Assembly: GCF_001659605.2 (NCBI RefSeq)
Contig: NC_035164.2
Coordinates: forward strand, 17,516,000 to 17,579,999
DNA length: 64,000 nucleotides
From: Manihot esculenta
Taxonomy: Eukaryota > Streptophyta > Magnoliopsida > Malpighiales > Euphorbiaceae
Direction of reading: 5' to 3'
Made by a program: the position numbers and the translations under genes. The notes under the pieces were generated by a model, which saw only the letters and a list, made by a program, of their open reading frames with translations, made no database searches and was not told the origin of the DNA. Positions within the stretch are counted from its first letter, which is position 1. Each line of letters starts with the position of its first letter. Shown piece by piece: positions 7,614-38,088 of this stretch.

Positions 7614-8969
7614 TGTAATACCCGGCTAGAGTCCGGCATCGGAATTCTGCTTTCCGGTGGAATCCGGGATGTCGAAAGTCGCTAGACGGGTTAGATTTAT
7701 GTTTTTCTATAATGTTTTACTATGTTCATCAAGTTTATTGCATAAGGAAATGAGTTTTTGAGTGAAATGACCCAAGGCAGAAAAGCCAGGTTCGGCCGCC
7801 GAAGTTGAGGTTCGGCCGCCGAACATGCATGGCTTTCGGTTTCACGTGTGGCCGCCGAAGGTGGTCTGGCCAGCCACCTATAAATGGCCCTCAGTCGGTT
7901 GAAGCGGTGAGAACACCGTTTCTTTTGTCTTCTGAGGTGAGATCCTGCCCTTGGTGAGTCTTTCTTCATGTTTTCATTAAATCATGCAAAGATTTGATTA
8001 GTTTTCATGATTATTTGAAGGTTTTAAGCTAAACACTCAAAGTTTTGAAGTTTGGAGAGTTTGAAGGCAAGTTGCTCCAAAACTCCACGTTAGGATCCTT
8101 CATCTACTTGTTTCCACGAGGTAAGTGAAGATCCTGAGCTTGTTTTTATGTTTTCTGAAGGTTTTATGGGGTTTGATGGAGAGAGTTGCATGAATAGGGT
8201 TTTTGAGAGTTTTTGATGATTTATGTGTACAGCTTGTTTTTGTGTTGTTTGTGTTGTGTGTTTGGGGTTGTTAGCTAGTTTTTGACCCCTTTGAGCATAT
8301 ACATGAGTGTATGCAAGTGGAGGAAGTGAGGTGTTTAAGTTGGAGAGGGTTTTGTGCATTTGGCGAGAGGCAGGGCAAGTTTCTGCCCTGCTGATGAACT
8401 CAGGTTCGGCCGCCGAAGGTACATTCGGCCGCCGAACCCCTGAAGAGGTGTGAGGAGATGGCTTCGGCTGCCCAAGCTTGCCCCCGAGCTTTTGGACTTT
8501 CGGCTCTGGAGGGAAGTTCGGCCGCCGAAGGTGCCGCCGAAGGTTAGAGACTTTCGTCTCTGGAGTGCCTTTTGGCCCCCGAAACTTGCCCTCGAAAGGG
8601 TTCGGCAGCCGAAAGTGGAAGTTCGGCCGCCGAAGGTGCTTGAGTTTCGTCTCTGGAGAGGACTTTCGGCCGCCGAACCTGCCGCCGAAAGTGTCCTGTC
8701 CAGCTTTCCTTTTGCATGCTTTGCATGGATGTTAGAATGAGTTTAAGGGGATTCTTGGGGAGTTTCATAGAGGTATTCATGAGCTAGTTTGGTCCCTCAT
8801 TTGAGTCCATCTGTATAGGTACAGACCAGAGGAACCAGAGAGAGCAGCAGTGAGTCCTGTGCCAGAGATTGTCAGAGCCTGCAGAGTCAGTCCAGTTAGC
8901 CAGAGGTGAGTGGAACTAAACTTAACTCTTTTAACTGCACAATGGAATGTTTTAGCATATCTCATGCAT

Positions 8970-10876
8970 TGACAGAACGGTTGTCGAGGCCGGTCAAAAA
9001 TAATACAATTCAATTATCAACAATATAAATACTGTAGATAGTGGTGAAAGGATCGAATCCACAGGGAATTGATACTTACCTATCTTTCTTGTCAAGACCA
9101 AACAAACAAACTGAAAATAAAAATAAAGTGCAAGTAAAGTAAAAAGGGGGGTTTTGAGATTGGTTTGATTAAACTAATGATGAAAGCAATAAAGAAAAGC
9201 AAATAATAAAATAAAGAGAAAACAAATATGAGAAAAGCTCTAGTTGAAGATTCAGATTCACTTTAGTTGATGGGATTGATCATTGACTCATATATTCCTT
9301 TGCTTGATTCAATAAATTGGCCATGGAGATTGAAGAAGCTTCTCACATCCATTATCTCTCTTTTAGATTAAATCAATTAGGGAAAGTCCTCCAATTAATT
9401 ACTAATTAACAATTGTCAAAGAACGTCTTTGAGCCTCAGGCCTTTTACAAAAGTCAATCGCATAAAGAAATAGAGAGAACCAATTCTAGTCACCCATATG
9501 CATGGAGATAACACTAGATCATGCAATTCCTTGGCTTTTACACCAAGTGTTCTTATATTTGAGCAATCCAAGCAATTACGGACTTAAGATTATTATCCAA
9601 ACTAACAATATATTACCTTGCAATCAAGAATCAGTGTAGATCCAAACAACAAAGCAATAATATCATAAAGCATGAAATACATGAATATTGAAAAGCAAAA
9701 GGTAAAACAATGAATGTCCAAGTCTCTCAATCCAAATTACAACCAAAGCTTCACTTGTTCTTCAACTAGAAAAAAGGTTTCAGCCACTCATGGCTGAAAC
9801 AAAAACTAAAAATAAAGAAAGGAAGAAAAAGAGAAGATGTCACTTGCAATCCCGTAGGTGTCTCCCAAGGGGAGTGTAAAGACCATGTAGAGGCTTCTTA
9901 TGTGGCTTTTTATAGTTGAAAAGTGTTGCCCTAGGTCATACTTACTGCCCAAGAGGTATTTTCTGCCCAAGATGTGTCTGAAAAGGAAAGAATCGCGCTT
10001 TTCGGCTTCAGAAGGAAGGCTGCGCGAAAATGCACTGCGAAAGGAAGTTGATGCGCGCGGTTTGGTCTCAGAAAGGGAAGGAGGCGCAGATTATGCTTCC
10101 TAAATAAGTTTAGATGCTGACCTTGCTTCCTAATTAGTGTAGAGGCTGCCCATATTGTTGCAGAAGAGGAAAGAATCGGACTGCAAGGCTTCAGAAGGAA
10201 GTTGGCGCGCAGATTGCTTTCAGAATAGGAAAGGAGCGTACCTTGTGCTTGAAAGGAGGAAAGAATCATGCATTAATGCTTCCAGAAGAGGAAGAAGTCG
10301 TGGCTGGAGCTTTAGAAGGAAAGAGACATGTTCCAAGGCTTTCAGAAGAGGAATGACGCGCGGATTGGTCTCCAGAAGGCAGGTGGCGTGCGCATGGATG
10401 CCTAAATTGGAAGATTTGACTCCTGCAGTATGTGCACATCTTTTGAACAAGGAAAGAAAAATCTGCGATTTGAATTTCAAATAATCTTCTGACTGAGCTT
10501 TCCTTATTTGCTTTTGCTTCTGTACTTTCCTCATTTGAAGACTTTCCTTTTTGGCTTCATGTTCTAAATAAGGCAGGAAAGATTTTGCAGTTCAAATTTC
10601 GAACAGTTTGCTAACTGTGCTTTCTGACTCTTTCCTTATTTGGCACTTTCCATATATGAAACTTTCCTTATTTGGAACTTTCCATATATGAAAACTTTCC
10701 TTTTCTGGAACTTTCCATATTTGGCACTTTTTTGGCAGTTTTAAGCGCATTTTCTCCAGAATGTCCTTTCACACCTAGTTTCTGCAAAACATGAACAAAA
10801 CAACCAAATTAGGCAGAAAAGGTGCAAATAAACATCATTAAGAACATTATAATATGGCCTAAAATGCGCTCTATCA
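8970..10876 (-). repeat. 3' LTR of element A
   Basis: 1907-bp LTR; sense strand minus. Contains repetitive purine-rich stretches (CAGAAGAGGAAAGAATC-like, 9980-10380) with several GCGCGC sites, and four ACTTTCC...TATATG/TATTTG repeats at 10640-10735. Short overlapping ORFs on both strands are by-products of this repetition and are duplicated in the other LTR; I do not regard them as genes. Confidence 0.92.
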
Positions 10877-10894
10877 AATACCCCCACACCTAAC
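10877..10894 (-). promoter_or_regulatory. PPT of element A
   Basis: The plus strand aatacccccacacctaac gives a sense-strand TTAGGTGTGGGGGTATT directly abutting the 3' LTR, the expected place and composition for a polypurine tract. Identical in its core to the PPT of the Athila-like element at 29161-29176. Confidence 0.8.
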
Positions 10895-11770
10895 CTTTTG
10901 CTTGTCCTCAAGCAAACAAACACAGTTGAACAAACTCTCTTCACTTTGATCCTTTATGTCCACTTAAGCTCTTACTCTAGACCCCTATTTTGAAGCATTG
11001 CAATAAAGAATATATGCATCAAGGTTACTTACCTCTTTCCTTGTTTCCCTTTACTTACCATGGCTAGGATTGGTTTTCCTCAAGAGAGACCATGCACATT
11101 ATATATTAAGACTTTTTCTAGCTTTTGGTGTGACTTGCCCTTACCTTGAAGTACTTTATTCAGGCTTTTGCACTTTAGATCTTGCTTGGAAAGGTCACCA
11201 ACCTATTTTTGATGTACTTTTAGATCTTTCAGTGGGTCACCTATCCAAGTGGCTATTTAGCCTTGTTCATAGTCTTTTGACCATTGGAACAATTTTCTCC
11301 ATTTTTTTTTTTTGTGCTTTTGAGGGCTTTGCCTTTGCTGAATTTTCTTTCTCTCAATGATTTGGGCAAATCAACACCTATTGCTAAATCAAGTCATGTT
11401 AAGTTCATTCACACAATTTCATTTTTGTCATCTTCAATCGAGGGTCATCAGTATATTTTTCACCATTGGTAAGCTCCAAGATTCAATTCAAAAAGCAATT
11501 TCCAAACATGAATACATCTTATTGCAATTGATTCAACATAGGTTTAAAGAGTCATTACATCAATGGGGTCATGGAAAGAAAGTTCATCCAACATAGTTCA
11601 TCAGTTTGAGTAAAGCAAATAAAAAGAAGATTGTGGATGATCAAACACAAACTGAAAGGAAAACTGAAAAGAAAACGCAAACTGAAAGCAAAAAAACTGA
11701 AAGGAAAATGCAAACTGAAAGGAAAAATGTGTCTAAAGCAAAAAAAAAATTAAAAATTTCAGAGATCCGC

Positions 11771-11784
11771 ACCCCCACACCTAA
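11771..11784 (-). promoter_or_regulatory. Second PPT-like tract inside element A
   Basis: acccccacacctaa repeats the PPT core 894 bp further inside the element. It is followed, as at the terminal PPT, by a ttgtcctcaa block (11793-11802). A matching second copy exists in the Athila-like element (30102-30115). Confidence 0.55.
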
Positions 11785-11886
11785 ATCATGCATTGTCCTC
11801 AATGTATAGCAAACATAAAAGAACAAAGGAAACTGAGTACTCCCCTGGTGTGGTGTTGTATGGTGTGATCCACTTGGTAAGTTGCC

Positions 11887-13107
11887 TCAAGTAATTGGGG
11901 GAGGAAAAAGGGTCCCAACATAATTAAGTGAATAGTGTAGCACGCCTTTTGATTTGGTCATAACCCATCTTATTTCTTTCATGTACTCATGAAGTAACAT
12001 GATCAGTTTCTCCTCTTTCAGATGAGGTGTGCCTCTAGCCCTTATGTTTGCATTTTTTAGCACTTCGAGCTTCAATTGATATTTCTCCATATGTAGCTGC
12101 AGTTTAGCATTGAGTTCGGGCAAAACAAATTCTACCTTATCTGGAGGCTTGGGCAAGCATAGATCTGCATGCTCCTTTGGTTTGGGTGCTTGGAATACCA
12201 TTTGTTCCTTGTGAGCCTGGGCTGTTTGCATTGGAAGGCTGAAAGGAGTTTCAGATTCTTCTTTCTGCGCAGAACTTACCTGAAAGGGAGGCAGAAGACC
12301 ACTGATCTGCGATTGAAGCTGAAAGGACACAACTGAAAGGCTTTCAGGTACTCCTTCTTGCGCAAGGTTGGTCTGCAATGGGAGGCTGGAAGGAGTTTCA
12401 TGCGATGGAAGCTGAAGAAGTGTGACTGGAAGTGTTGCAGGACTGTCCTGCGCAAGGTTGATCTGCGCACCAAGCTGAAGTGGTGCGATCTGCTTCTGTT
12501 CATTATGCGCATGGCTGCAGTCCACCTGTTGGATGCAACAGTCAGTTTCTTTCAGTTCTGGCTCTTTCTGGCTCTCTTTCCTGCAAGGATCATCATTTAG
12601 CATATCATTTTGATTTACATAAAAAACATCTTGGCTCATAAAATCAATGATATCTAAAGCAACAAGTTCTGTTTGATCAGTTGGATTGGACAAACTATCT
12701 TCTGGTTGGGTTTCTTCAGCAACTTGTTCTTGTACTTGCCATCTTTCATCATCAGCTTGACGCTCTTCCTCTTTTCTTACCATGTCTTCTCTCCATTTGG
12801 CGGCTACTCGATCCACTTCCTGTTGGAAATTGTGCAAAGTCTCCAACATCTTATAAAGATTAGTTCTGGTATCTTCAGGTATTGCATATCTCGGCTGTCC
12901 ATAGAATCTTTCACATGCATGTACTTGTTGGAGTTGTTGTTCTTCAAAAGCTTGTTCAGCTTGGTCTATAACAAAACTTCTCATAGCAGCGATTTGTTCA
13001 TAAAGTTCCACAAGGCGGAAAGGTGTACTTACCGCGTCTTGTTCTATGGTTAAATCTTTCAATAAAGATGTTAGAAAAGAAAGATCAGATCTACTTACCT
13101 CATTCAT
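11887..13107 (-). CDS. 406-codon ORF of non-autonomous element A, unknown function
   Basis: The only intact ORF of A, starting 122 bp after the PBS where gag normally sits. No zinc knuckle, protease or polymerase motif is visible. Residues about 1-120 look helical and charged (EQAFEEQQLQQ, RKEEERQADDERWQ), suggesting coiled coil. Residues 150-180 (DIIDFMSQDVFYVNQNDM, then CRKE) match the protease-RT linker of the Athila polyprotein ([18 protein letters not shown], then CRRE; plus coordinates about 35500-35612). Residues 200-310 are Gln/Leu/Pro-rich with repeated LPLQTNLAQ-like units. The C-terminal 90 residues are basic (KLQLHMEKYQLKLEVLKNAN). It could be a structural, gag-like or RNA-binding protein or a neutral remnant. 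The open frame over 406 codons with little LTR divergence suggests youth rather than proven constraint. Confidence 0.65.
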   Translation of the reverse strand: MNEVSRSDLSFLTSLLKDLTIEQDAVSTPFRLVELYEQIAAMRSFVIDQAEQAFEEQQLQQVHACERFYGQPRYAIPEDTRTNLYKMLETLHNFQQEVDRVAAKWREDMVRKEEERQADDERWQVQEQVAEETQPEDSLSNPTDQTELVALDIIDFMSQDVFYVNQNDMLNDDPCRKESQKEPELKETDCCIQQVDCSHAHNEQKQIAPLQLGAQINLAQDSPATLPVTLLQLPSHETPSSLPLQTNLAQEGVPESLSVVSFQLQSQISGLLPPFQVSSAQKEESETPFSLPMQTAQAHKEQMVFQAPKPKEHADLCLPKPPDKVEFVLPELNAKLQLHMEKYQLKLEVLKNANIRARGTPHLKEEKLIMLLHEYMKEIRWVMTKSKGVLHYSLNYVGTLFPPPIT

Positions 13108-13160
13108 GATTCAGATGTGCAATTGAGATGTTTCAGAAGATGGTTCTGCGCAGAGTGCTC

Positions 13161-13180
13161 TTTTTTTTTTTTTTTTTTTT
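13161..13180. repeat. Poly(T) tract
   Basis: Uninterrupted run of 20 T between the start of the A ORF and its PBS; on the sense strand it is an A20 tract in the 5' leader. Confidence 0.9.
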
Positions 13181-13228
13181 ATGTTCAGATCTGGTCCTGA
13201 AAGAAAAACAAATGAGTTAAATCAATTC

Positions 13229-13245
13229 CCCGGCAACGGCGCCAA
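13229..13245 (-). promoter_or_regulatory. tRNA-Asp primer binding site of element A
   Basis: Plus strand ccccggcaacggcgcca equals the 3' end of plant tRNA-Asp including CCA, so the sense strand is its complement. It lies 4 bp from the 5' LTR (13250). Primes minus-strand DNA synthesis. Confidence 0.9.
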
Positions 13246-13249
13246 TTTT

Positions 13250-15152
13250 GACAAAACGGTTGTCGAGGCCGGTCAAAAATAATACAATTCAATTATCAAC
13301 AATATAAATACTGTAGATAGTGGTGAAAGGATCGAATCCACAGGGAATTGATACTTACCTATCTTTCTTGTCAAGACCAAACAAACAAACTGAAAATAAA
13401 AATAAAGTGCAAGTAAAGTAAAAAGGGGGGTTTTGAGATTGGTTTGATTAAACTAATGATGAAAGCAATAAATAAAAGCAAATAATAAAATAAAGAGAAA
13501 ACAAATATGAGAAAAGCTCTAGTTGAAGATTCAGATTCACTTTAGTTGATGGGATTGATCATTGACTCATATATTCCTTTGCTTGATTCAATAAATTGGC
13601 CATGGAGATTGAAGAAGCTTCTCACATCCATTATCTCTCTTTTAGATTAAATCAATTAGGGAAAGTCCTCCAATTAATTACTAATTAACAATTGTCAAAG
13701 AACGTCTTTGAGCCTCAGGCCTTTTACAAAAGTCAATCGCATAAAGAAATAGAGAGAACCAATTCTAGTCACCCATATGCATGGAGATAACACTAGATCA
13801 TGCAATTCCTTGGCTTTTACACCAAGTGTTCTTATATTTGAGCAATCCAAGCAATTACGGACTTAAGATTATCCAAACTAACAATATATTACCTTGCAAT
13901 CAAGAATCAGTGTAGATCCAAACAACAAAGCAATAATATCATAAAGCATGAAATACATGAATATTGAAAAGCAAAAGGTAAAACAATGAATGTCCAAGTC
14001 TCTCAATCCAAATTACAACCAAAGCTTCACTTGTTCTTCAACTAGAAAAAAGGTTTCAGCCACTCATGGCTGAAACAAAAACTAAAAATAAAGAAAGGAA
14101 GAAAAAGAGAAGATGTCACTTGCAATCCCGTAGGTGTCTCCCAAGGGGAGTGTAAAGACCATGTAGAGGCTTCTTATGTGGCTTTTTATAGTTGAAAAGT
14201 GTTGCCCTAGGTCATACTTACTGCCCAAGAGGTATTTTCTGCCCAAGATGTGTCTGAAAAGGAAAGAATCGCGCTTTTCGGCTTCAGAAGGAAGGCTGCG
14301 CGAAAATGCACTGCGAAAGGAAGTTGATGCGCGCGGTTTGGTCTCAGAAAGGGAAGGAGGCGCAGATTATGCTTCCTAAATAAGTTTAGATGCTGACCTT
14401 GCTTCCTAATTAGTGTAGAGGCTGCCCATATTGTTGCAGAAGAGGAAAGAATCGGACTGCAAGGCTTCAGAAGGAAGTTGGCGCGCAGATTGCTTTCAGA
14501 ATAGGAAAGGAGCGTACCTTGTGCTTGAAAGGAGGAAAGAATCATGCATTAATGCTTCTAGAAGAGGAAGAAGTCGTGGCTGGAGCTTTAGAAGGAAAGA
14601 GACATGTTCCAAGGCTTTCAGAAGAGGAATGACGCGCGGATTGGTCTCCAGAAGGCAGGTGGCGTGCGCATGGATGCCTAAATTGGAAGATTTGACTCCT
14701 GCAGTATGTGCACATCTTTTGAACAAGGAAAGAAAGATCTGCGATTTGAATTTCAAATAATCTTCTGACTGAGCTTTCCTTATTTGCTTTTGCTTCTGCA
14801 CTTTCCTCATTTGAAGACTTTCCTTTTTGGCTTCATGTTCTAAATAAGGCAGGAAAGATTTTGCAGTTCAAATTTCGAACAGTTTGCTAACTATGCTTTC
14901 TGACTCTTTCCTTATTTGGCACTTTCCATATATGAAACTTTCCTTATTTGGAACTTTCCATATATGAAAACTTTCCTTTTCTGGAACTTTCCATATTTGG
15001 CACTTTTTTGGCAGTTTTAAGCGCATTTTCTCCAGAATGTCCTTTCACACCTAGTTTCTGCAAAACATGAACAAAACAACCAAATTAGGCAGAAAAGGTG
15101 CAAATAAACATCATTAAGAACATTATAATATGGCCTAAAATGTGCTCTGTCA
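13250..15152 (-). repeat. 5' LTR of element A
   Basis: 1903-bp LTR, nearly identical to 8970-10876; differs by a 3-bp deletion (attatcc versus attattatcc) and scattered substitutions. Ends TGACA...TGTCA. Acts as the promoter LTR for the minus-strand transcript. Confidence 0.92.
14184..14190 (-). promoter_or_regulatory. Likely TATA box of element A 5' LTR
   Basis: Sense-strand CAACTATAAAAAGCC context, conserved at the same place in the 3' LTR (9908-9914). Position in mid-LTR fits a U3/R promoter. Not experimentally supported here. Confidence 0.5.
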
Positions 15153-15466
15153 TGCATCATGATTATGCAATAGGGTGATTGCATAAGTACCCACGAATAT
15201 GTTGAATTGCATAGTTATTTGTTGATGTGGGTGAATGCTGAATGATCCAATAGTCTCAGACAGGAAGTCCAGGAGCCTTTGACTACGCCCTGGCAGGTAT
15301 AGCGAAGTCCAGGAGCCTTTGACTACGCCTTGGCAGGTATATAGGAAAGTCCAGGAGCCTTTGACTACGCCCTGGCAATGGTAAGTACAGAGGTGTTATA
15401 TACACATATACATATATGACAGGAAGACCAGGTGCTCGATTCTACGCCCTGGCACAGAGTTACTGG

Positions 15467-19400: not shown

Positions 19401-21173
19401 TGATAGAGCATATTTTAGCCCATATTTTCATGATCTTATTGATGTTTATTTGCACCTATTCTACCTAATATTGTGGTTTTAATCATGTTTTGCAAGTATT
19501 AGGTGTGATGAAACAATTTGCAGAAAACGTTCTTAAAAATGCCAAAAGAAGCCAAAACTAGAGAAGCAACCTTCGGAGGCAACTTTCGGAAGCCAAAAAT
19601 CAGTCACCTTCGGCGGCCGAAAGAGGACTCCAGAGACGAAAGTCGACCACCTTCGGCGGCACCTTCGACCGCCGAACCTTGTGTCCAGAGTCGAAAGTCC
19701 AGCCTCCGAAACTCACTTTAGGCAGCCGAAAATACACTCCAATGCACACTTTCCTTATTCAAGAAGCCATATCTCAAGTTGCCATATTTGAGGAGCCAAA
19801 CAAGGGAAGTATTTTGAGATCCAAATCTTCAAGATTCACATTCAAATATTGGATTTCAAGATCAAGCTTATTAAGGAAGCCAAATCCAAAGATCACATGT
19901 TTCCCACTTAGTGTCATGCACATTCAAAATTCAAAAGGAGGCTCCACCTTCCTTATTAGTGCATGGGCAGCCTCTTAACTCTTTAGGCAACATCTTGAAG
20001 ACCTTGGGCAGCAATTAAAAAGACCAAAGAGCCCCCACTTGCCTCCATTCACATGCATCTCGTTTTTGCCTTCACCCATGCACAAAGAAGGCACATATGG
20101 GACCAAGGGCACTTTGGACAGCCTCTAAAAGACTCATGGACTGCCACCAAACCCTACGGAGCCTCTCAAGATCTATTTAAAGGCTTCAAGAAGACAAGAA
20201 GATAGATTTGGTTCCACCACTTCTCCACAAATTCGGCAAGGCTCCAAAGCCTCTCTCCACACTTTAGTTCTTCATCTTCTTCTTTCTTTTCATCTATTTT
20301 CTGTTTTGGTTCAGCCATGTGTGGCTGAAACCCTCTTTCTAGTTGAAGTTTGGTTGAAACTAAGGTTGTTTAAAGGGTTGTGAGATCTGAATAGAAACTT
20401 TTGTCTTTGATTTTATTCAATATTCATGCAATTGTGCTTAATTCTAAAGATTGCTTTGTTGTTTTGATCAAATTGGCCACTTGATTCTTGATTGCAAAGT
20501 TAATTGATTGTTGGATTAGGATATTTGTTAGTCCGTAATTGCTGGAAATATTCTGTCCATAGAACACTTGGTGTAAAAACCCAAGAAATTGTATGATCTA
20601 GCAACATCTCATGCGTTTGAGTAGCTAGGGTTTGGATCTTTCTTGTTCTTCATGCAATTGGCAATTGTTTTGATGCCTTTGGCCCAAGGACGTTCCTTGG
20701 CAATTTGTTGATTAGTAATTGGTTAGAGGACGTTCCCTAATCAGTTTGTTCATAAGGAAAGACATGGTGGTGAGAAGCGTCTTCCACCCCCATAACCAAC
20801 CTATTGAATCAATCAAGATAAGCATGTTTCAATGATCAACCCAAACAACCAAAGTGGATCCATATCTTCAACTAGACTTTTCTCATATTGATTTCTTCTT
20901 TTATTTTGATTACTTGCTGTTTTAATTGCTTTCAATAGTTGTTAGACAAATCAATCTCAAAACCCCCTTTTTTACTTTCCTTGCACTTGTTTCTATTTCT
21001 CTTTGATTACTTGCTTTCACTTGTGCTTTCATTTAGTTCTATTGGTCTTGATTGAGATAAATAAATAGGTAATCAATTCTCTGTGGATACGATCCTTCAC
21101 CACTATCTGCAGTTGTGAATTGTAGGTAACGAAGAAGGTTATTTTTTACCGGCTTCGACAACCGCTCCTGTCA
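19401..21173 (+). mobile_element. Solo LTR K1, Athila-type, plus orientation
   Basis: 1773 bp, TGATAGAGCATATTTTAGCC ... CGACAACCGCTCCTGTCA, flanked by gtggg (19396-19400, 21174-21178), inserted in gag of B. The ends and the inner block near 21080 (ctgtggatacgatccttcac) match element A and K2 LTRs in reverse orientation, so it belongs to that family. Unlike those it contains, at 19570-19735, a Tekay-like block of TTCGGCGGCCGAA and CCAGAGACGAAAGTC units. No internal region remains. Confidence 0.92.
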
Positions 21174-21591
21174 GTGGGTATGGCATATGAGAAGGGTAAG
21201 GATTAAAGCTGGGGTAATCCGATGTACCTCCCATCGAATACCCGGGGTTCTGTGAAAATGGTGGGTACTGAGGTGGCTAAACAAATCCCGAGGCCTGAGT
21301 GCCTCCTTGGGACTCTCCCATACCCTCCTCCGACATACTCACTCCAAGACTGCCATCCCTCCTCTGATCTACATCCATATCATCCCCCACATCCTCTGAC
21401 CTTCCTCCTTGAACTGTTCCCCTTACTGATCTACTTCTGCCCAGATCCAAAGACCTTCTCGGGTCTCTCACTGCTCTTTCCCTGCTAGACCTGCTAGACA
21501 TTGCTCTTGGCAATGCAGGGGGACAGGCACTCATGCCCTCATCCTCCGGTGGTACTCCAGTCAATCGTGCAGATCGACGAGTTCCTCTCAT
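21174..21591 (-). pseudogene. gag: Element B gag, N-terminal part
   Basis: ATG at 21591, 250 bp after the PBS. The frame starts MRGTRRSARLTGVPPEDEGM and is rich in Arg/Ser and then Asp/Glu, closely matching the E gag N-terminus (57410). It continues past K1 at 19400. The short Pro/Tyr-rich stretch that follows in E (PPYYPP repeats) is where K1 inserted. Confidence 0.88.
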
Positions 21592-21852: not shown

Positions 21853-24800
21853 TGTAACGACCCGAAAATCGAACCGCTACCGGCGCTAGGATCCGGATCG
21901 GCTTAAGGCCGCCGGGACCCGTAGCAAGCCTAACATGAAACTTGTATACCTGTTAAATCCCATACATGATCAACACATACATAACATATTTGAACTTTTC
22001 TCATTCAATTTCCAAACTCAACCTGTGCATGCACAACTCATAATCATCATTCACCTTATTGGAGTTCTCAACTAGGCTCCAATGGGAAACATTCACTCAT
22101 ACATTGAGTTTGGTTTTCATAAATATCATTAAACCATTACATTTGAAAGATCATGTATTAAAAGGGATAAACCACATACTAGGGTCAAGCACCACTCTAA
22201 ACCTCAATAACATCATTACATTACATAATTATTCAATACCATTCATTACATTACAGAGCTGAACATTTCATTACAATATTTATCATGTCCACCACTAGCT
22301 ATTACATAACCATGACTTTACTCTAGCTGACCTCCTGGTCTAACCCGTACCTGCAAACCTGGGGTTAAGGGAGTGGGGTGAGCTATTAGAGCCCAGTGAG
22401 CAGAATAATAAAACATGGTATTTAAAACATATGATAACATGGAATGCATCACAACACAAACAATTCACATCAAGGATGAACTTGTCACCATTTAACCCTC
22501 CATACAGTCTAATCATGCCAGGGGCGTAGTGCAGGCACGCCTGGACTTCCATAGCATAACATACATATCCAATAGTGCCGGGGGCGTAGTGCAGGCACGC
22601 CCGGACTTTCTCTTACATAGTGCCAGGGGCGTAGTGCAGGCACGCCTGGACTTCCATATCATATCATCATGTCATAACATATGAGGGCTAATGGATCATC
22701 CAACATTCATCCACATCATCAACATAATATGCAATGCAACATATTCGTGAATTCTAATGCAAGCATCCTAATATATCTCATGGCATTCATGATGCGTGTA
22801 TCATGCTAAAATTTCCATTATTTGCTTTGAAACATAAAGAGTTATTCCACTCACCTCTGGCTAGCTCTGACAGACACTGAAGCAGCTGACTCACTGGTGG
22901 GGTCCTCGGTTCCTCGGGTCCGAACCTACACAGGTGGACTCAAATGAGGGACCAAACATACATAAATATGATTCTAAGATACTCCCCAAAAACCCCCTAA
23001 AACACCTTAAAACAATCACAAAAATCATGCAAAGGAAGGCTGGACAGGGCACTTTCGGCGGCAGGTTCGGCGGCCGAAAGTCCCTCCAGAGCCGAAAGTC
23101 ATGCACCTTCGGTGGCACTTTCGGCGGCCGAAGGTTCCTTCCAGAGATGAAACTCATGCATGTTCGGCGGCACCTTCGGCGGCCGGAACTCCCTTCCAGA
23201 GCCGAAAGTCCACTTTCGGGGGCAGGGTTCGGTAGCCAAAAGTTGGCCTCCACAGGCAGGTTCGGCGGCCGAAAGTCCCTTCGGCTGCCAAACCTGAGTT
23301 CCTTCCAAGGGCAGAAACTCAGCCTCTAACATGCACAAAGCCTCCCAACTCATTCGAACATGCATTTACCTATCCTACAACATGCAAACTCAAGCATACA
23401 AGCTCCTAGGGGTTCAAACTATCCTAAACCCCAACTTACAACACATCAAACACACATAAACATCATACATTGTACAATAACTCAATATAAACCCATGAAC
23501 TCAAAAATAACCTAGCATGCATATCTACCCTGACAGAGCGGTTGTCGAGGCCGGTCAAAATAATCAATTCAATTGCCAACAATAATAAAACTGTAGACAG
23601 TGGTGAAAGGATCGTATCCACAGGGAATTGATACTTGTTTACCTTCCTTGAGTAGACCAAATTAAAAGGATCAGAAGAGAGTAGAAAGTGCAAGTGCATA
23701 TAAAGTAAAAATGGGGTTTTGAGATTGATTTGATTGAACTAATGTAAAGAGCAATTGAAAAGAAAGCAGTTGGCAAATTAAGGGTAAAATAATGATAGTA
23801 AAAGCTCTAGTTGAAGATTCAGATTCACTTTAGTTGATGGGATTGATCATTGACTTATATGTTCCTTTGTTGATTCAATAAATTGGCCATGGAGATTGAA
23901 GAAGCTTCTCACGTCCATTGTCTCTCTTTAAGATTAAATTAATTAGGGAAAGTCCTCCAATTAATTACTAATTAACGATTGCCAAAGAACCTCTTTGAGC
24001 CTTAGGCCTTTTACAATAGTCAATTGCATAAAGATATAGAGAGAACCAATTCTAGTCACCCACATGCATGGAGACAACACTAGATCATGCGATTTCCTTG
24101 GTGATGCACCAAGTGTTCTTATGGTTGAACAAATCAAGCAATTTCGGACTTAAAATCATTCAAACCAACAATATATTACCTTGCAATAAAAATCAATGGA
24201 GATCTTAAATAACAAAGCGATAATGTCCTTTAAGCATGAAATCACAAGAATATTGAATAAGAAAAAGATAAACAATGTAGTCCAAGTCTCTCAATCCACA
24301 ATACAACTAAAGCTTCACTTATTCTTCAACTAGAATGAAAGAGTTTCAGCCACTCATGGCTGAAACAAAAACCATAAAGAAAGGTAGAAGAAGAGAAGAG
24401 GAAGCCGAAGGTGGTGAGGCGCGGCCTTGCTTGATCCGGATGGAGAAGGAGAAGATGAGTCTGAAAGTGTCCAAATTCGTGGCTGCCAAAGAGAGTGCCT
24501 TTTTATAGAGTTTTGGTGCTGCCTAGGTCTTCCTAATTAGTGTAGAGGCTGCCCAAGGTGCTGCCCAAACACTACTTGCTGCCCAAGTTGTTGCAGAAGA
24601 GGAAGATGGAGAGAATCAAGGCTTTCAGATGGAAGGTGGCGCGCAGATGGCCTTCAGAATAGGAAAGGAGCGTACCTTATGCCTGAAAAAGAAGGAAGAG
24701 CGATCCATGGATGCCAATAGAGGAAGAAAAATCGTGGCTTGCTCTGCAGGAGAGAGAGACGCGCGCGGATGGAGCTTGAATAGGAAGTAGGCGCGCGGAT

Positions 24801-26136
24801 CCGGATTGCAGAAGAGGTAGGCGCACGGATGGAGCTTGAATAGGAAGTATTTGCTGTCCAAACTCCCTATTTAGATGGAGCCTCTTTTGAATTATGAATA
24901 TGGACTGAATAAAGACCAAGTGCGTTGAGATCTCCTTCCTGAATAGGGAGTGGCGCGCAGATTGTGTTGCAAGAGGCAAGTGGTGCGCAGTCATTAAATG
25001 CAGATGGGAAAGTGTATCTGTCCAGTCTTTCCTTTTTAGGTGGAGCCTTCGTTTGAATTTTGAATTCTGAATGCAGAAGAGGAAGAGCATCTCCTTGAGA
25101 TCTTGCTGCCTAAACAGGAAGATATGACTGCTGCAGTGTGTGCACATCTTTTGAATAAGGAAAGAAAGATCTGTGATTTGAAATTCAAATAATCTTCTGA
25201 CTGAGCTTTCCTTATTTGCTTTTGCCTCTGCACTTTCCTCATTTGAAGACTTTCCTTTTTTGGCACTTTCCATATATGAAAACTTTCCTTATTTAGAACT
25301 TTCCATATATGAAAACTTTCCTTTTCTGGAACTTTCCATGATTGGCACTTTTTGGCAGTTTTAAGAGCATTTTCTCCAGAATGTCTCTTTACACCTAAAA
25401 TCTGCAAAACATGATTAAAACCACAAAATTAGGCAGAAAAGGTGCAAATAAACATCAAGAACATCATGATAAAGTGGGCTAAAATATGCTCTGTCATACC
25501 CCATAAATCTTCATGAAACTCGCTTAAAACATATAATGAGCTAAAGATCGACTCTTACCTTTTGAAGATCTAGAGAGAGTGTGACCTAACTTGGAGATTT
25601 GGGGAAGATGGGTTCCTGAGGTCTCCAAGCTTCACAACTTCGATCTAAGCTTGAAATCTTCAAAACCAAGTTAAAAATCCATAAGAAATCATGAAAAATC
25701 GAAGGAAGAAGCTCAAAATCAACAAGGGACGGCGGAGAGCTCATCTTGGCCGAAAATGGGGAGAAAAGCTCGCCTATTCGGACATGGGGACCCCTTTATA
25801 GGTGGGTGGCCAGGCCACTTTCGGGGGCCTAACGTGCCTCCGCATGCATGCCATGTTCGGCGGCCGAACCTGGACTTCCCTCACTTATGCCTTCGGGGGC
25901 CTAAAGCACTCCCGAAGCGCATGCACATTCGGCGGCCGAACTTGAGGTTCGGCGGCCGAACCTGAATCTTCCTCCAAGGCTATTTTCATTCAAAACTCAA
26001 TTTCCTTTTTACTTAAAATCATAAAATACATTAAATCATTTCATAAAACATGATTTTACCCTTCTAGAAGTTTCCGACATCTGAGATTCCACCGGACGGT
26101 AGGAATTCCGATACCGGAGTCTAGCCGGGTATTACA
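21853..26136 (-). repeat. 5' LTR of element B, interrupted by K2
   Basis: Sense strand minus. 4284 bp including solo LTR K2 (1966 bp plus 5-bp TSD); the LTR itself is about 2313 bp. It matches 1544-3832 with scattered transitions and one 24-bp length difference near 22736-22760. Same palindromes, the same three GTAGTGCAGGCACGCC blocks (22517-22650) and the same TATA region (near 25795). Confidence 0.93.
23531..25496 (-). mobile_element. Solo LTR K2, element-A family
   Basis: 1966 bp, plus strand TGACAGAGCGGTTGTCGAGG ... ATGCTCTGTCA, flanked by taccc (23526-23530, 25497-25501); the empty site is visible in the other B LTR (atctaccccataa at 3191). Same family as the LTRs of A but clearly diverged, with the same purine-rich and ACTTTCC repeats. 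No internal sequence. Confidence 0.94.
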
Positions 26137-27090: not shown

Positions 27091-27656
27091 AAAGGATATA
27101 TAAACCTCCTCATGACCGAAAATTTAAGAGAGTTACAAACACAATTAAACTGTTTGCTCTCCCAATTTTCTCTATAGTGCCCCCAATCTCCCCTATTAGC
27201 ACCAAGGGAATTCAACAATTATTGCAGCTCTTCGAGAATTCTTAACTTTTCCTCCTCGTTTGGCTTACTATTGGAGGTAATCAACTTGGATTACTATAAT
27301 TTGTGACAATCTAGTTTGATAAATAAAATTATGAAATCAAGAATCTTGAATCTCTAAAGGTAAAATTTTGCATCTTTAATTTTAAGAAAGCAATTTTTAT
27401 TATTTCTTTCCATTGTTTGGACATTGAGATTTAACTTTTATTGCCATATTATTGTTTATGATATTGAAAAACCAACAGAACTCACACTACCATCGAAATA
27501 ATCTCATCGTTCATAACATCAAACTCTAGTACAATGGTTTAAAAATTAAATAACTGCATAGAATTGTAACAATGCACGTTGGTAGTCTTCCCACATGAGC
27601 ATTTTACCATAAAAATACTCCTTGCCTAGTTCCATGAGCTGAGCATCTTTAGCACT
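27091..27656. other. Unassigned sequence left of the Athila-like insertion
   Basis: Contains a plus-strand TATA-like aaggatatataaacctcct (27100) that could be a remnant promoter or part of a neighbouring LTR. Then come AT-rich sequence and, on the minus strand just before the Athila TSD (27655-27553), a 34-codon open stretch reading AKDAQLMELGKEYFYGKMLM onward to a TAA. No family recognised. Confidence 0.35.
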
Positions 27657-29160
27657 TGATAAGCGGTTGTCGAAGCCGTCAAAAATAAACCTATTAAACA
27701 ATCAACAATAAACTTGTAGATAGTGGTAATAGGGTCGAACCACAGGGAATTGACACCAATGTTTTTCCTAATAATGACTAGGTAAATAGCAAATAAATAA
27801 AAAAGGGGGGGTTTTGATTTGATGATTAAAATAAAATAGCAAAAGAAAGCAATAATTTAAAGATGAGTAAATCAATAAGAGAGAGATTCTAGCTGAAGTG
27901 TGAGTGTTATTCAGTTTGTTCAGAATTGATCATTGATTTCTTAAAGATTCCTATTTGACTTCAATAAATTAGTTTTGGTTGTGGAAAACGCTTCTCACAA
28001 TCCAAATTCCTCCTTAGTTCTAGTTTGATTAGGAAACGTTCGCTAATCAAACACTAATCAACAAGTTGCCAAGGAACGTCCTTGGGGCATTGTAGCATCG
28101 AACAACTGTTGATTGCATTAAGACTTAGAGAAACCTAATTCTATCCTTGCCAACCGCGTGGTCAAGTTTAGATTATGCAACCTGATTAAATGTGTATTTG
28201 AACAACCTAAGCAATTACGGACCTAAACCATTCAAACAATATCACTTAGCAAATTAGAAGCAATGGGCCCTTATTGATTCTAAAAGCAAGTAATATTTAT
28301 AGAAGAGATCAGATTGCATAAATATTGAAACAAACAAGAGTTCAACAATGGAGTATTAAACCTCCCAATTCATCACAATTCTGAATATTCACAATTTCAA
28401 CTAGAAACAAGGAACTTAGCCACTCATGGTGGACTAAATACACAAAAAGATGAAAAGAAAATAAAGAAGAACAACTGCAGAGTTTCTGGCGAGGGAGAGA
28501 TGCTGGATGAGGCTGATCAGAAGATGCCTTTGCTGGTTTTGAGGCTCTCCTTTTATAGCTGCAGAATTTCTCTCCTTCTAGGGTTTTGAAATCCCTCTTT
28601 GATTTGGTGTTGGACTCCTCTTTTGATGTTGACTTTAATTGCAATTGGATTTCCTTGGATGAGAAGCTCTTTCGTGGCTCTTGGATAAGTGCTGGAAGTG
28701 ATTGGATTGGATTTGGACTTCTGAAAATTCGGATTTCTGTTTGCTGTCCATTTTCCCGCTCTGCTGTAATTTTCTGCTGTCAAAGTGATTTGCCCGGCGA
28801 TTTGACCAGTTTCTTGGGCAAATCACTGGGCAAATCGCTTCTCTGTGAGTCAGTCCTCTATGCCTCTGCGAGTGATTTGGCCAGTGATCCTCGATTGTCT
28901 TGGTCAAATCGCCTGCCCATGTCACTGCTGTCCGTTGCCTCTGGGTATCTGTTTTAGCTTGATCTGGGCAGTGATTGGAGCAGATTTTTGGGCAAATCAC
29001 TGGGCAAATCATCCTTTTGCAAATTTTCTGCACTTTTTCTCCCATTTTCCAGATTCTTCCTTTTCTGTAAAAACAATATAAAAACTATAAATTAAGCTAG
29101 AAAATGTGTAAATAATCAATAAAAGAGATAATAAAAATGTGGCTAAATTGTGCTTGATCA
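27657..29160 (-). repeat. 3' LTR of the Athila-like element
   Basis: Plus strand TGATAAGCGGTTGTCGAAGC ... GTGCTTGATCA. Includes the conserved block GTAGATAGTGGTAATAGGGT near the U5 end, a TATA motif (ttttata at 28551-28557) and the GGGCAAATCACT motif in both orientations (28785-29010). Confidence 0.95.
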
Positions 29161-29176
29161 AATACCCCCACACCTA
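29161..29176 (-). promoter_or_regulatory. PPT of the Athila-like element
   Basis: Plus strand aatacccccacaccta abutting the LTR; sense TAGGTGTGGGGGTATT. Confidence 0.82.
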
Positions 29177-30250
29177 GCTTTTTGCTTGTCCTCAAGCAAC
29201 AAATAACTTAGCCAATCAAGCCCCCTTTTTCCTTAGAACCTAAACACCACTTAATCAGCCCCCCCTAGACTCCTAACCTGAATTATCACAGTATAGAGTA
29301 CATGCACTAAGGTCATCCTCTCCTTTCCTTGTTTCCTTTTACCTACCATGGTCAAGAGAAAGGTTTTTGAATCAATCATGCTTATTCCTTTATGTTAGTT
29401 TTAATGCAACCCCTAGGAGTGACCTGCCACCTTCTCTCTTTCTCCTTTTTATTTATATTTTTATTTTCAGCAGCACTTATTCTTATTCTTTGCCTGAAAA
29501 AGTCACTAACCTTTTTACGCGATTGTGTACATGGGTGATACACCCCCGGTTACTCAGTTAGTCACTTGTTCAAGTGGCTACTAGCTCTGTTCATAGTCTA
29601 GACCATCGAAACTTATTTGCTTGAAAAAATTACTGACCTTTTTACGCGATTGTGTACATGGGTGATACACCCCCGGTTACTCAGTCAGTTACTTCTCCAA
29701 GTGGCTATTAGGCTCAGTTCATAGTCTTAGACCATTGGAACAAGTTTGTGATTTGTGCTAATTTGGGCAAATCAGCTCATAGGGAGTTACACTCACTTTG
29801 TGTTTGCATGTATTTGTATTTTAATTTCCCTTGACCACAACAAGTTTAAGGGTTCAATTCAAGTAAAGAACTTCCTAAGTGAAGGTAGCATACTGTGAGT
29901 AATTCAACTAAGGCTTAGAGGGGTGGCCAATCAATGGGGTCATGAGATAAGGGCACTCTTTCAACCTTGTTATTTATGTTGAGTAAAGCAACTAGCTACA
30001 AAATTCTGTGTGTGTGCAGAAAGGGGTAAAAAAAAACAAAAAGAAACAAAAAGAAATCAAAAGGATTGACAGATCAAAAGAATGGAATAAAGACTCTCCA
30101 GTACCCCCACACCTATCCCACATATTGTCCTCAATGTGTAAGTATATATATAAAAGAATGAAAAAGGAAAGGGAAAGATATTTCCTGGCCTGGGGGTGAT
30201 TTGACCAGTGACTTGAGCAAGTACTGGGCAAATTACTGGGCAGATCGCTA
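29177..30250 (-). other. Non-coding 3' internal region of the Athila-like element, with a tandem duplication and a second PPT-like tract
   Basis: About 1.1 kb between the second ORF and the PPT. A roughly 138-bp tandem duplication spans about 29486-29760 (both copies contain acgcgattgtgtacatgggt and tacacccccggttactcagt). A second PPT-like tacccccacaccta lies at 30102-30115, followed by ttgtcctcaa as at the terminal PPT. Element A has a single copy of the corresponding region (11180-11290: ccaagtggctatttagcctt, gttcatagtc, gaccattggaac), so the segment is conserved across the family. No ORF of note. Confidence 0.7.
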
Positions 30251-31975
30251 TCAGTGACGGTGCTGGGGCAGAAAGTGGTCCACCAGCAGGTTCAACAAGT
30301 GCTCCATCCTCTGCATTTGGTCCTCAATCCTACTGAGACGAGCCTCGACTGTCTGGTTGGGGGCTTCGTCTTCGTGTGGCTGAGGAGCATCCTGCTGAGG
30401 GGCTGCTGGTGGTGGCTCATTTGCTGGTCCTTGGCCTATTGCCTGGGTTGCCTCATTTACTGGTTCTGCGGTGGAGGCTGGCTGCTGTGTGCTGGTGCTT
30501 ATGGTGACTTTCTTCCTTCTGAAAACACGCTCATGGCGTGGCGTTACTGGACCTGCAGGTGCAATAGAAAAAACATCCCCCACCTTACAAAGCAACCCCA
30601 TATCATCCAATGTGCGTAAGTCCAAGGGGGTTGTTTTGGGGGTGGGGGAGAGGTCAGTATATGCGGGGTGCAATAGCTTGAGATTCACTGCAATGGCAGT
30701 GATCAAAGGACCAAAAATCAAGGGCCTATTATATTGTATAATGCTGGATAGTTGGGTGGCAACCCAATATCCAAGATGTATTTTCCTGCCCCTGTGCATG
30801 CACCAAAGGAAATACAACTCAGTTCTGGTCAGGATGTTGGAGGCATCCTTCCTCCCAGAGAATGTGTAGGCCAGGTATCTGTGAAGGTATTTCAGACTGG
30901 GGTTGCTGAGGTATAGGTCCTTGGACCTAGTGGGTGAGTATGAGTCAGGTGGATTATCACTAAGTTCCAAGTACGCAGAGTTTTGATCAAACTCAGCAGG
31001 GAAGTCCCATGTTGACTGTGGGCATTCACAGCCCATGGCTATGGTGAACTCCTGCAGGGATAAGCGAAATCGCTTCCCCAACAATCTAAATCCAATGGTG
31101 CCAGGTGTGTGTATGTTGTGCATGGCCGGTTTATCAAAATAAAATGTGGTGAAAAACTCCTGTGTGAGTTCCAGGAAGGATGGCATGCGCAGGAGGAAGA
31201 AAGTGTCCCAGCCAATAGCAGAAATTAGAGAACGTACCTGGGAATGTAGTTTCAGTGCTCCAAGGGTGGCATGATGGATATACTTACCTGGATGATATGG
31301 TAAGGATGAAATTTTAAGCAGCCTGGTGCGTTCAGAAATTTTGTTGAATGTCAGTGCTTTGACGATGTGATCTGGGTGTGTTGGCCTGGGCAAATCGCTG
31401 GGCAAATTGCTGGGCATATCACTGAGTGTGTCTGTGGGCACATCGCTAGGCACATCACTTGGTAAGTCCCTGGGCGCATCGCTGGGCATAGCGCTGGTGA
31501 AGTCAGTAGGCGCATCGCTAGGCACATTGCTTGGCATATGGCTGGGCACAGCGTTGGGCACAGCGTTGGGCACATCGCTGGTGGAATCAGTTGGCGCATC
31601 AGTGTCTTTGGCGATGGTAGGTTCCGGTTCTGGCTCGAACCTCGGTGGCGACTGAGTTCTTGGCCGTTTCTGGCTGTGGCCGGTGGGAGTGGTGGTTTCG
31701 GGGAACTTTTTGCCCTCAGGGCCTGCCGTCGGGGCTGTTGTGGATGGTGGTGGCGGCGTTCTTTGCCGTTTCTTTTGCCGGCGATATATCTGGACGGCCG
31801 GTGAATCGGTGCGTCCTGTTCCTGTGCTTGTGGCCGGTGGTGTTTCGGCGCTGGCGGTGGCTGGTGGAGGGGCATCTTGCGCCTCGTCATCGCTGTCGGA
31901 AGGGACGGGTCTCGGAAGCCCTAATTTCTTCCACATGAACGGTCCGCCGGTGGCCTTCATCTTAATCCTTACCAT
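30251..31975 (-). CDS. Athila-type second ORF (post-pol, sometimes called env-like)
   Basis: 574 codons from ATG at 31975, 494 bp downstream of the pol stop. The N-terminal about 190 residues are low complexity (Pro/Thr/Ser), including tandem SDVPSDVPTD/SDMPSNLPSD units coded by the element's GGGCAAATCACT-type repeat. Residues about 200-480 form a globular region (IGWDTFFLLRMPSFLELTQE; GTIGFRLLGKRFRLSLQEF; TELYFLWCMHRGRKIHLGYW) resembling the family described from Arabidopsis ATHILA ORF1 proteins. The C-terminus is Gln/Pro-rich and ends in a heptad-like stretch (RLSRIEDQMQRMEHLLNLLV), probably coiled coil. I see no signal peptide or convincing transmembrane helix, which argues against a true envelope protein. 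Expression may need splicing or a subgenomic RNA. Function unknown. Confidence 0.82.
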   Translation of the reverse strand: MVRIKMKATGGPFMWKKLGLPRPVPSDSDDEAQDAPPPATASAETPPATSTGTGRTDSPAVQIYRRQKKRQRTPPPPSTTAPTAGPEGKKFPETTTPTGHSQKRPRTQSPPRFEPEPEPTIAKDTDAPTDSTSDVPNAVPNAVPSHMPSNVPSDAPTDFTSAMPSDAPRDLPSDVPSDVPTDTLSDMPSNLPSDLPRPTHPDHIVKALTFNKISERTRLLKISSLPYHPGKYIHHATLGALKLHSQVRSLISAIGWDTFFLLRMPSFLELTQEFFTTFYFDKPAMHNIHTPGTIGFRLLGKRFRLSLQEFTIAMGCECPQSTWDFPAEFDQNSAYLELSDNPPDSYSPTRSKDLYLSNPSLKYLHRYLAYTFSGRKDASNILTRTELYFLWCMHRGRKIHLGYWVATQLSSIIQYNRPLIFGPLITAIAVNLKLLHPAYTDLSPTPKTTPLDLRTLDDMGLLCKVGDVFSIAPAGPVTPRHERVFRRKKVTISTSTQQPASTAEPVNEATQAIGQGPANEPPPAAPQQDAPQPHEDEAPNQTVEARLSRIEDQMQRMEHLLNLLVDHFLPQHRH

Positions 31976-32468
31976 GGTGCCGGTGGGTGAGTGGTGGTCG
32001 GAGAGAAGAAAGCTTGAAGAAGAAGAAGAGATAAAAAAAAACAGTAGTTTAGCGTAAAAATTAAAAATAAAAGAAAAGACTACTTAAAGTGATTAGGGAA
32101 TGTGATCTGCCCTGATCATTAAATGCTGGCCCTCTGGATTTTTGACAGGGTGATTTGCCCAGTGATTTGGGTAAGCAGTGGGCAAATCACTTGGCCAGAC
32201 CGCTTCTCCTTTGCTTTTGCTGGGCTGGTACTGTTCACGCCCTTTTCTGATGATGTGCTTGATTTTGCGATTGGACCGGTGATCTTGGTCAAATTATCTG
32301 GGCAATTGGGCAAATCACTGCCCCGATCACTTGTGATTATGGTACATTCAGTCGATTTGCCCGGCGATTTGGGCAAGTATTGGGCAAATCACTGGGCAAA
32401 TCACTGCCTCTGGGCTGCCTCCCAGTAGCGCCCTGTTTTCTGTCTTGGGCTGGACTTCAGTGTCTTGC
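31976..32468 (-). other. Spacer between gag-pol and the second ORF, rich in the GGGCAAATCACT motif
   Basis: Non-coding. Contains dense direct and inverted copies of the motif (32148-32200, 32260-32330, 32350-32405), able to pair as hairpins, for example gatttgcccagtgatttggg against gggcaaatcac. No other feature. Confidence 0.7.
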
Positions 32469-38036: not shown

Positions 38037-38066
38037 AAAGGGAAAATACGTTAGTTTAAATCAATT

Positions 38067-38083
38067 CCCCGGCAACGGCGCCA
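38067..38083 (-). promoter_or_regulatory. tRNA-Asp primer binding site of the Athila-like element
   Basis: Plus strand ccccggcaacggcgcca, identical to the PBS of element A, 5 bp from the LTR edge. Confidence 0.92.
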
Positions 38084-38088
38084 ATTTT

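Follow-up and report, generated by a model that had tools for sequence, protein, structure and literature searches.

An Athila element of cassava without enzymatic domains and the apparent selection on its gag-pol-derived open reading frame

The element and its surroundings

We analysed a stretch of 64,000 nucleotides of the Manihot esculenta (cassava) genome (contig NC_035164.2, forward-strand positions 17,516,000 to 17,579,999), in the following called the window. At 8970-15152 on its minus strand, it harbours a complete non-autonomous long terminal repeat (LTR) element of about 6.2 kb with a single open reading frame (ORF; 13107-11887) of 406 codons. An initial annotation, made from the sequence, had described a complete, non-autonomous element of Athila type that is flanked by target-site duplications (TSD) and has LTRs of about 1.9 kb, a primer binding site (PBS) and a polypurine tract (PPT), while one ORF takes the place of all enzymatic domains. 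This description is borne out. That is, the sequence TGCAT is found on both sides of the element (8965-8969 and 15153-15157), and the 3' LTR (8970-10876) and the 5' LTR (13249-15152), both with TG...CA ends, are 99.4% identical. A Pfam search of the ORF yields no family at cut-off, the sole listed match being DUF6026 (E = 0.7). With two LTRs, TSD, PBS and PPT present and both reverse transcriptase (RT) and integrase absent, we are dealing with a non-autonomous LTR retrotransposon, and its PBS, PPT and Athila-derived sequence identify the type.

Read along its own (minus) strand, the 5' LTR precedes the PBS TGGCGCCGTTGCCGGGGA (13227-13244), which we take to match tRNA-Asp, and a 5' leader (13108-13226) with a poly-A run and, at about 13178-13197, a remnant of the gag start that has no start codon there. 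The ORF (11887-13107) is followed by a 3' noncoding region (10896-11886), in which a further PPT-like motif lies internally at about 11770-11800, and finally by the PPT GGTTAGGTGTGGGGGTATT (10877-10895), which adjoins the 3' LTR. The LTR pair differs by 8 substitutions over about 1904 positions and by one 3-nt indel. Given the rate of 1.5e-8 per site per year used in PMC2410132, these substitutions date the insertion to about 0.14 million years (Myr) ago. We also observed two splice-like motifs, i.e., a consensus-like donor GAG/GTAAGTA at the ORF start (13092-13104), which is also present in the 5 longer relatives looked at, and a consensus-like acceptor TTTTTCTTTCAG/G in the leader (13196-13210). 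Splicing may be relevant to this lineage.

The window contains a longer Athila at 27656-39592, whose LTRs (27656-29160 and 38088-39592) are 99.9% identical. It encodes an uninterrupted polyprotein of 1855 amino acids (aa; 38036-32469) and a 574-aa ORF (31975-30251), which we presume to be env-like. For residues 310-960 of the polyprotein, the best matches listed are only about 53% identical. The PBS and the bases after it are identical in both elements, 17/19 bases of the PPT agree, and the 3' noncoding region of the short element can be aligned with what follows the env-like ORF in the longer one. The LTR termini differ, i.e., TGACAGAG/TGATAGAG...TGTCA in the short element versus TGATCAAG...TATCA in the longer Athila; conserved LTR termini are a criterion for partner pairs in PMC9744471. 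The window also has two solo LTRs that belong to the same wider family, at 23531-25500 and 19401-21176, with 5-bp duplications TACCC and GTGGG, respectively. Pieces of them are 73-94% (23531-25500) and 72-80% (19401-21176) identical to the LTR of the short element.

Athila-derived segments of the ORF

The ORF is a succession of four segments. Residues 1-136 (12700-13107) correspond to Athila sequence from the gag end on the nucleocapsid side (NEVS...) up to the stretch just before the protease; they are predicted to be helical, miss the knuckle cysteines and show the strongest sign of purifying selection (see below). Residues 137-200 (12508-12699) form a protease-to-RT linker (LDIID...) without detectable selection, which continues in a length-variable, Q/L/P-rich part (residues 201-310; 12178-12507). 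The last segment, residues 311-406 (11890-12177), corresponds to the region preceding RT (EEKLIMLLHEYMKEIRW), the RT itself being absent. AlphaFold2, applied to 9 sequences, places helices at residues 6-21, 28-67 and 78-132 (10-residue mean of the predicted local distance difference test, pLDDT, 51-79 up to residue 130). Past residue 132, it predicts mostly disorder, apart from helices of low confidence in the range 332-399 (mean pLDDT 42.8).

The initial annotation had found the linker to be common to the ORF and the polyprotein of the window's longer Athila, which we can confirm (37% identity over 59 aa, E = 5e-8). It had further taken this linker for the only sequence shared with Athila and the rest of the ORF to be without family. 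Both statements have to be revised, since the gag end, the pre-protease stretch and the pre-RT segment match as well, and since longer cassava Athila copies match the ORF in order on the DNA level.

On the protein level, we compared the ORF with an Athila profile of 118 sequences, i.e., the window's polyprotein and 117 of 120 listed proteins (3 dropped because of their length). Three segments match in order (profile positions 30-106, 466-556 and 595-622), and the whole ORF scores 17.5 bits, compared to 9.0 for the best of 2000 shuffles. Taken separately, the linker and the pre-RT segment each reach scores that 0/2000 shuffles attain, such that the pre-RT segment also matches Athila on the protein level. 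The N-terminus alone matches weakly (21/2000 shuffles as good), and no match to this profile is found for residues 196-310. The N-terminus relates better to the protein P0005, in which an intact Athila CCHC region is followed by an ORF-type linker without a protease; it aligns with a score of 69, while 2000 shuffles reach at most 50. In this alignment, the loss of the knuckle cysteines looks like the outcome of substitutions.

P0005 is among the 8 relatives of the ORF listed among 5.8 billion predicted proteins. Another one, P0128, is the homologous Manihot esculenta protein LOC122723222, and the same protein is found on contig C3 of the window's genome with 99% identity. No relative was confirmed in IMG/VR viral contigs and prokaryote genome contigs.

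On the DNA level, eight longer cassava Athila loci (L069-L076; 8 of 150 scored matches) align with the ORF in order with 72-88% identity. The aligned pieces are ORF nucleotides 4-37, 75-158, 244-288, 447-665 and 785-994, not all of which are present in each locus. At the ORF start, the short element and 5/5 longer loci looked at have AATGAGGTAAGTA in common, and the ATG of the short element reads GCC or ACC in these five. ORF residues 77-149 match a stretch that ends just before the protease (E = 0.006, one locus), while residues 137 onwards match a stretch at and after the protease end of the longer loci; the protease thus appears to have been excised in between. In addition, the leader behind the PBS resembles the gag start of the window's longer Athila (1/2000 shuffles as good), and capsid-side gag is absent between this leader and NEVS.

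Judged from these alignments, i.e., from the in-order Athila matches together with the gag remnant in the leader, the element is an internally deleted Athila that has lost capsid, protease, the RT, RNase H and integrase block (RT-RH-IN) and the env-like ORF. Both its coding and its noncoding sequence derive from Athila, where the lineage is assigned without RT, since the element has none. The initial annotation itself had named the finding that would speak against a new protein, namely that the ORF is a part known from full-length Athila. This largely applies, since the ORF represents a reduced Athila polyprotein, and its parts on either side of the linker occur in longer cassava copies. L069-L076 carry gag, protease and varying parts of pol, but the frames around the ORF match extend over just 221-381 aa and 3/8 have a stop inside the match, such that they are best described as interrupted relatives.

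Two side observations concern other Athila copies. L070, L071 and L074 have kept protease-side and integrase-side stretches while the RT-RNase H part is gone, another type of deletion in the cassava genome. L080 has, directly behind an Athila integrase end, a 3' region with pieces that are 86-93% identical to the 3' noncoding region of the short element. It is possibly a close relative of the parent that lacks the env-like ORF.

Copies, variants and LTR backbones

A six-frame protein search of the genome identified 117 stretches that match the ORF. They correspond to at least 102 loci, including the window's own and some incomplete ones; 102 of 4906 candidates were scored, hence the locus count is a lower bound. 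About two thirds of the loci are 97-100% identical in protein, while other groups show 91-96% and 77-81%. Besides the window, we read 60 loci, in a set of 40 and a set of 20. The ORF is spanned in 40/40 loci of the former, 32 of which are without internal stop, and in 17 loci of the latter, of which 14 are without internal stop. In all 57 full-span copies the net length of the ORF is divisible by 3, where the first 62 nt had to be extrapolated in L066 and 4-5 nt in two others. As a side observation, nine pairs of ORF copies share their orientation with a spacing of 4.1-4.8 kb (e.g., C1:20014767/20019253, C8:13212605/13217085, C16:19038856/19043307 and C11:17342687/17347314), which fits LTR-internal-LTR-internal-LTR tandems. 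Such an arrangement seems common for an LTR element.

To count variants, we used 53 sequences, i.e., the window and the 60 loci without 4 excluded copies (3 truncated, 1 with unaligned start) and without 4 second members of tandems. Variants found in a single copy comprise 119 nonsynonymous (N), 43 synonymous (S) and 7 stop changes, those in two copies 24 N, 18 S and 1 stop, and those in at least three copies 88 N, 70 S and no stop. Shared variants (at least three copies) are thus poor in amino-acid changes compared to single ones (odds ratio, OR, of N:S 0.45, P = 0.00065) and depleted of stops (P = 0.009). This test requires no mutation spectrum, while its P values are inexact because related copies share variants. 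By segment, the depletion is strongest for residues 1-136 (OR 0.20, P = 0.007), followed by residues 311-406 (OR 0.48, P = 0.08). For residues 137-200 (OR 0.60, P = 0.32; shared N:S 20:7) and 201-310 (OR 0.61, P = 0.14) it is less pronounced. The linker at 12508-12699, by which the initial annotation had recognised Athila, is the ORF segment with the least sign of selection.

We also compared the ORF with neutral expectations. The median NG86 ratio of nonsynonymous to synonymous rates (dN/dS) between the window and 14 divergent copies is 0.43, with 0.28 for residues 1-136 and 0.23 for residues 311-406. A neutral spectrum was derived from the 3' noncoding region of 7 copies that align well; it is rough given its 21 singletons, and a transitions-only null was applied alongside. 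In 41 copies, shared variants reach 0.53 of the neutral N:S under the observed rough spectrum (P = 1.6e-5) and still lie below neutral under the harshest, i.e., transitions-only, null (P = 0.011), while singletons are at 0.95 of neutral. Finally, 20 close copies show 0 indels within the ORF versus 102 distinct indels in noncoding sequence and 201 in the LTRs. Given these patterns, the ORF product seems to be kept by purifying selection during multiplication of the element.

The initial annotation had seen two options for the open frame, extreme youth or a selected function, and had suggested dN/dS among genome copies for deciding. The insertion is indeed young, but youth leaves unexplained why frames are open in copies that diverge at about 20% of their residues. 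Selected function fares better, as shared variants are stop-free and poor in amino-acid changes and singletons of the whole set look neutral.

The ORF and its surroundings differ in their divergence. We picked the 20 closest copies by ORF similarity and read them whole. Their ORFs are 99.1-99.6% identical to the window's (98.5-100% per third of the ORF), while their LTR quarters mostly show 85-95% (range 84.5-99.3%; some not alignable). A 250-bp stretch of the 3' noncoding region falls into two identity classes, 0.84-0.87 and 0.996-1.0 (2/20 not measured). Within a copy, the LTR pair is 98-100% identical in all 16/20 copies where a pair was found, one of them measured over 199 bp only and one across a tandem neighbour. 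A scan of 19 copies in steps of 80 bp gives mismatch rates of 0.06-0.16 ahead of the ORF and 0-0.011 over most of its length. Around the final 100 bases of the ORF the rate is 0.03-0.04; it is 0.01-0.02 in the 160 bases that follow and mostly 0.05-0.11 thereafter. As the copies were picked by ORF similarity, a block of low divergence over the ORF is partly expected. Near-identical ORFs on backbones that are mostly 5-15% apart are nevertheless unexpected without recombination, and the pattern suggests one ORF cassette on many LTR backbones. For wheat elements, sub-populations have been proposed to exchange LTRs (PMC9744471).

Interpretation and known systems

Our preferred reading, to which we assign a probability of about 0.8, is a non-autonomous Athila (Ty3/gypsy) that descends from a longer cassava Athila through internal deletion and whose ORF product is selected through an advantage in cis. 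The RNA of the short element would rely on complete Athila elements, whose proteins would package, reverse transcribe and integrate it, and the ORF product would aid the very RNA that encodes it during packaging, reverse transcription or integration. Most likely, the product would be a helical, oligomerising Gag-derived fragment that either joins Gag/Pol assemblies of the helper or binds RNA near its translation site; the predicted helical N-terminus would be compatible with self-association. Given such a cis-advantage, the ORF would be selected in source copies, each new insertion would then decay neutrally, and template switching between co-packaged RNAs would shift the ORF among LTR backbones. 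We are more tentative, at somewhat less than even odds, about the specific form of this idea, in which a protein of Gag-Pol inter-domain segments without capsid and zinc knuckle acts as a selected cis-acting packaging or assembly factor and spreads from one LTR backbone to another as a cassette that recombines.

The short element and the window's longer Athila agree in PBS and PPT but not in their LTR termini, and the helper presumably belongs to one of the Athila lineages of the cassava genome. We sampled stretches upstream of 12 Athila loci. Six of them contain about 700-920 bp of LTR with 76-77% identity to the short element's LTR, compared to 67-72% to the LTR of the window's longer Athila; their identity to the solo LTR at 19401-21176 is higher again (79-82%). 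Two of the remaining loci have shorter LTR pieces and the rest lie in other sequence. A PBS was found in 0/12 of these stretches.

Several observations weigh against the preferred reading. The 21 closest copies are uninformative with regard to shared variants (N:S 6:3) and have a median NG86 dN/dS of 0.65, and 2/6 intermediate copies show dN/dS values of 1.11 and 0.84 relative to the window. For the subset of 27 copies that are close or intermediate, singletons also lie below expectation (0.59 of neutral, P = 0.014), such that singleton neutrality is valid for the whole set and not for each subset. Local DNA alignment of divergent copies places 93 gaps, of which only 28 have a length divisible by 3. 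As the net lengths are nevertheless multiples of 3, either the gaps are misplaced in the repetitive middle or indels compensate each other. Furthermore, the six-frame protein search biases the collected copies towards open frames, the structure model is poor past residue 132 (mean pLDDT 42.8), and the window's longer Athila is an imperfect partner given its LTR termini. The function that we propose for the ORF product is inferred.

Among the alternatives, we consider it unlikely, and to about the same extent, that selection acts on translation of the RNA instead of on the protein or that the selection signal is inherited. In the former case, an open 5'-proximal frame would avert nonsense-mediated decay or guide packaging, which would fit an ORF start near the leader, the zero stops among shared variants and the large length variation tolerated in the ORF middle. 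It predicts, however, the removal of stops and frameshifts and no preference for synonymous over amino-acid changes, while N:S is low in residues 1-136 and, less surely, 311-406. An inherited signal would stem from Athila gag-pol by recombination, the short element itself needing no protein. Recombination is common, as seen from two identity classes inside one segment, and the synonymous divergence (dS) of 0.66 in the middle and 0.32 in the C-terminal segments versus 0.09 at the N-terminus points the same way. Still, the copies have a common start, protease junction and, where spanned, stop, which the longer elements lack, and constraint is strongest in the knuckle-less N-terminal part.

That the ORF is a passive relic, i.e., open only owing to the youth of the copies and to a parent that was still coding in the recent past, we regard as less probable again. 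Taken by themselves, the 21 closest copies are compatible with this, singletons across the whole set look neutral, and with 8 substitutions over about 1904 LTR positions the insertion is young. Yet amino-acid changes and stops are depleted among shared variants, open copies exist in subfamilies at 77-81% amino-acid identity, and the N-terminal selection (OR 0.20) falls in the knuckle-less form typical of the short family. An unrelated gene captured inside an Athila shell, the strong form of the initial proposal, is highly improbable. The missing Pfam match and the mere 8 relatives listed among 5.8 billion proteins would fit, but the ORF is colinear in DNA with cassava Athila gag-pol copies from its starting codons onwards. 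The same colinearity rules out a captured host gene.

Non-autonomous retroelements are usually viewed as freeloaders that are maintained by RNA signals alone, or as Gag donors. Apparent selection on a protein without capsid or nucleic-acid-binding knuckle would imply that a part of Gag-Pol outside the named domains is worth keeping, a question made testable via the binding partners of the Athila gag tail and pre-RT segments. If true, a selected inter-domain protein would be an accessory gene that belongs to a parasite itself. The spread of the ORF across diverged LTR backbones would also be a clear plant-genome case of modular recombination.

Large retrotransposon derivatives (LARDs) have an internal region without coding capacity, while terminal-repeat retrotransposons in miniature (TRIMs) are defined by very short LTRs and overall length. 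Like them, the cassava element is a non-autonomous LTR element that would be mobilised in trans, but its apparently selected ORF sets it apart from both, and with LTRs of 1.9 kb and a length of 6.2 kb it is far longer than TRIMs. Both serve as element classes in PMC7353026. Closer to home, the P0128-like longer cassava copies (L069-L076) have the ORF parts on either side of the linker in the same order, but retain gag, protease and varying parts of pol.

The closest precedent comes from Arabidopsis, where Athila families without pol (Marco and Marin 2008, PMC2410132) have intact ORFs under purifying selection and recombine with each other. As they, too, are Athila LTR elements without pol that recombine and have a selected ORF, the initial annotation's 'undescribed system' is too strong. 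The Arabidopsis families encode Gag or Gag plus Env, while the cassava ORF consists of inter-domain segments without capsid, knuckle or Env; with no Gag family in Pfam, it is no gag-only Athila either. Our literature search, with most subscription papers and Repbase-type libraries outside its coverage, returned no report of a cassava element of this type. The wheat pairs RLG_Quinta with RLG_Cereba and RLG_Sabrina/RLG_WHAM with RLG_Wilma (PMC11302176, PMC9744471) are comparable in that they involve a non-autonomous partner (Quinta with its own ORF), a common PBS, inter-lineage exchange and long co-evolution. Quinta, in contrast, encodes GAG plus DUF1 and has LTR termini in common with its partner, while the cassava element is without capsid and its termini differ from those of the window's Athila. 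Compared to these systems, the element type itself looks ordinary, and it is the apparently selected ORF lacking a capsid that looks new.

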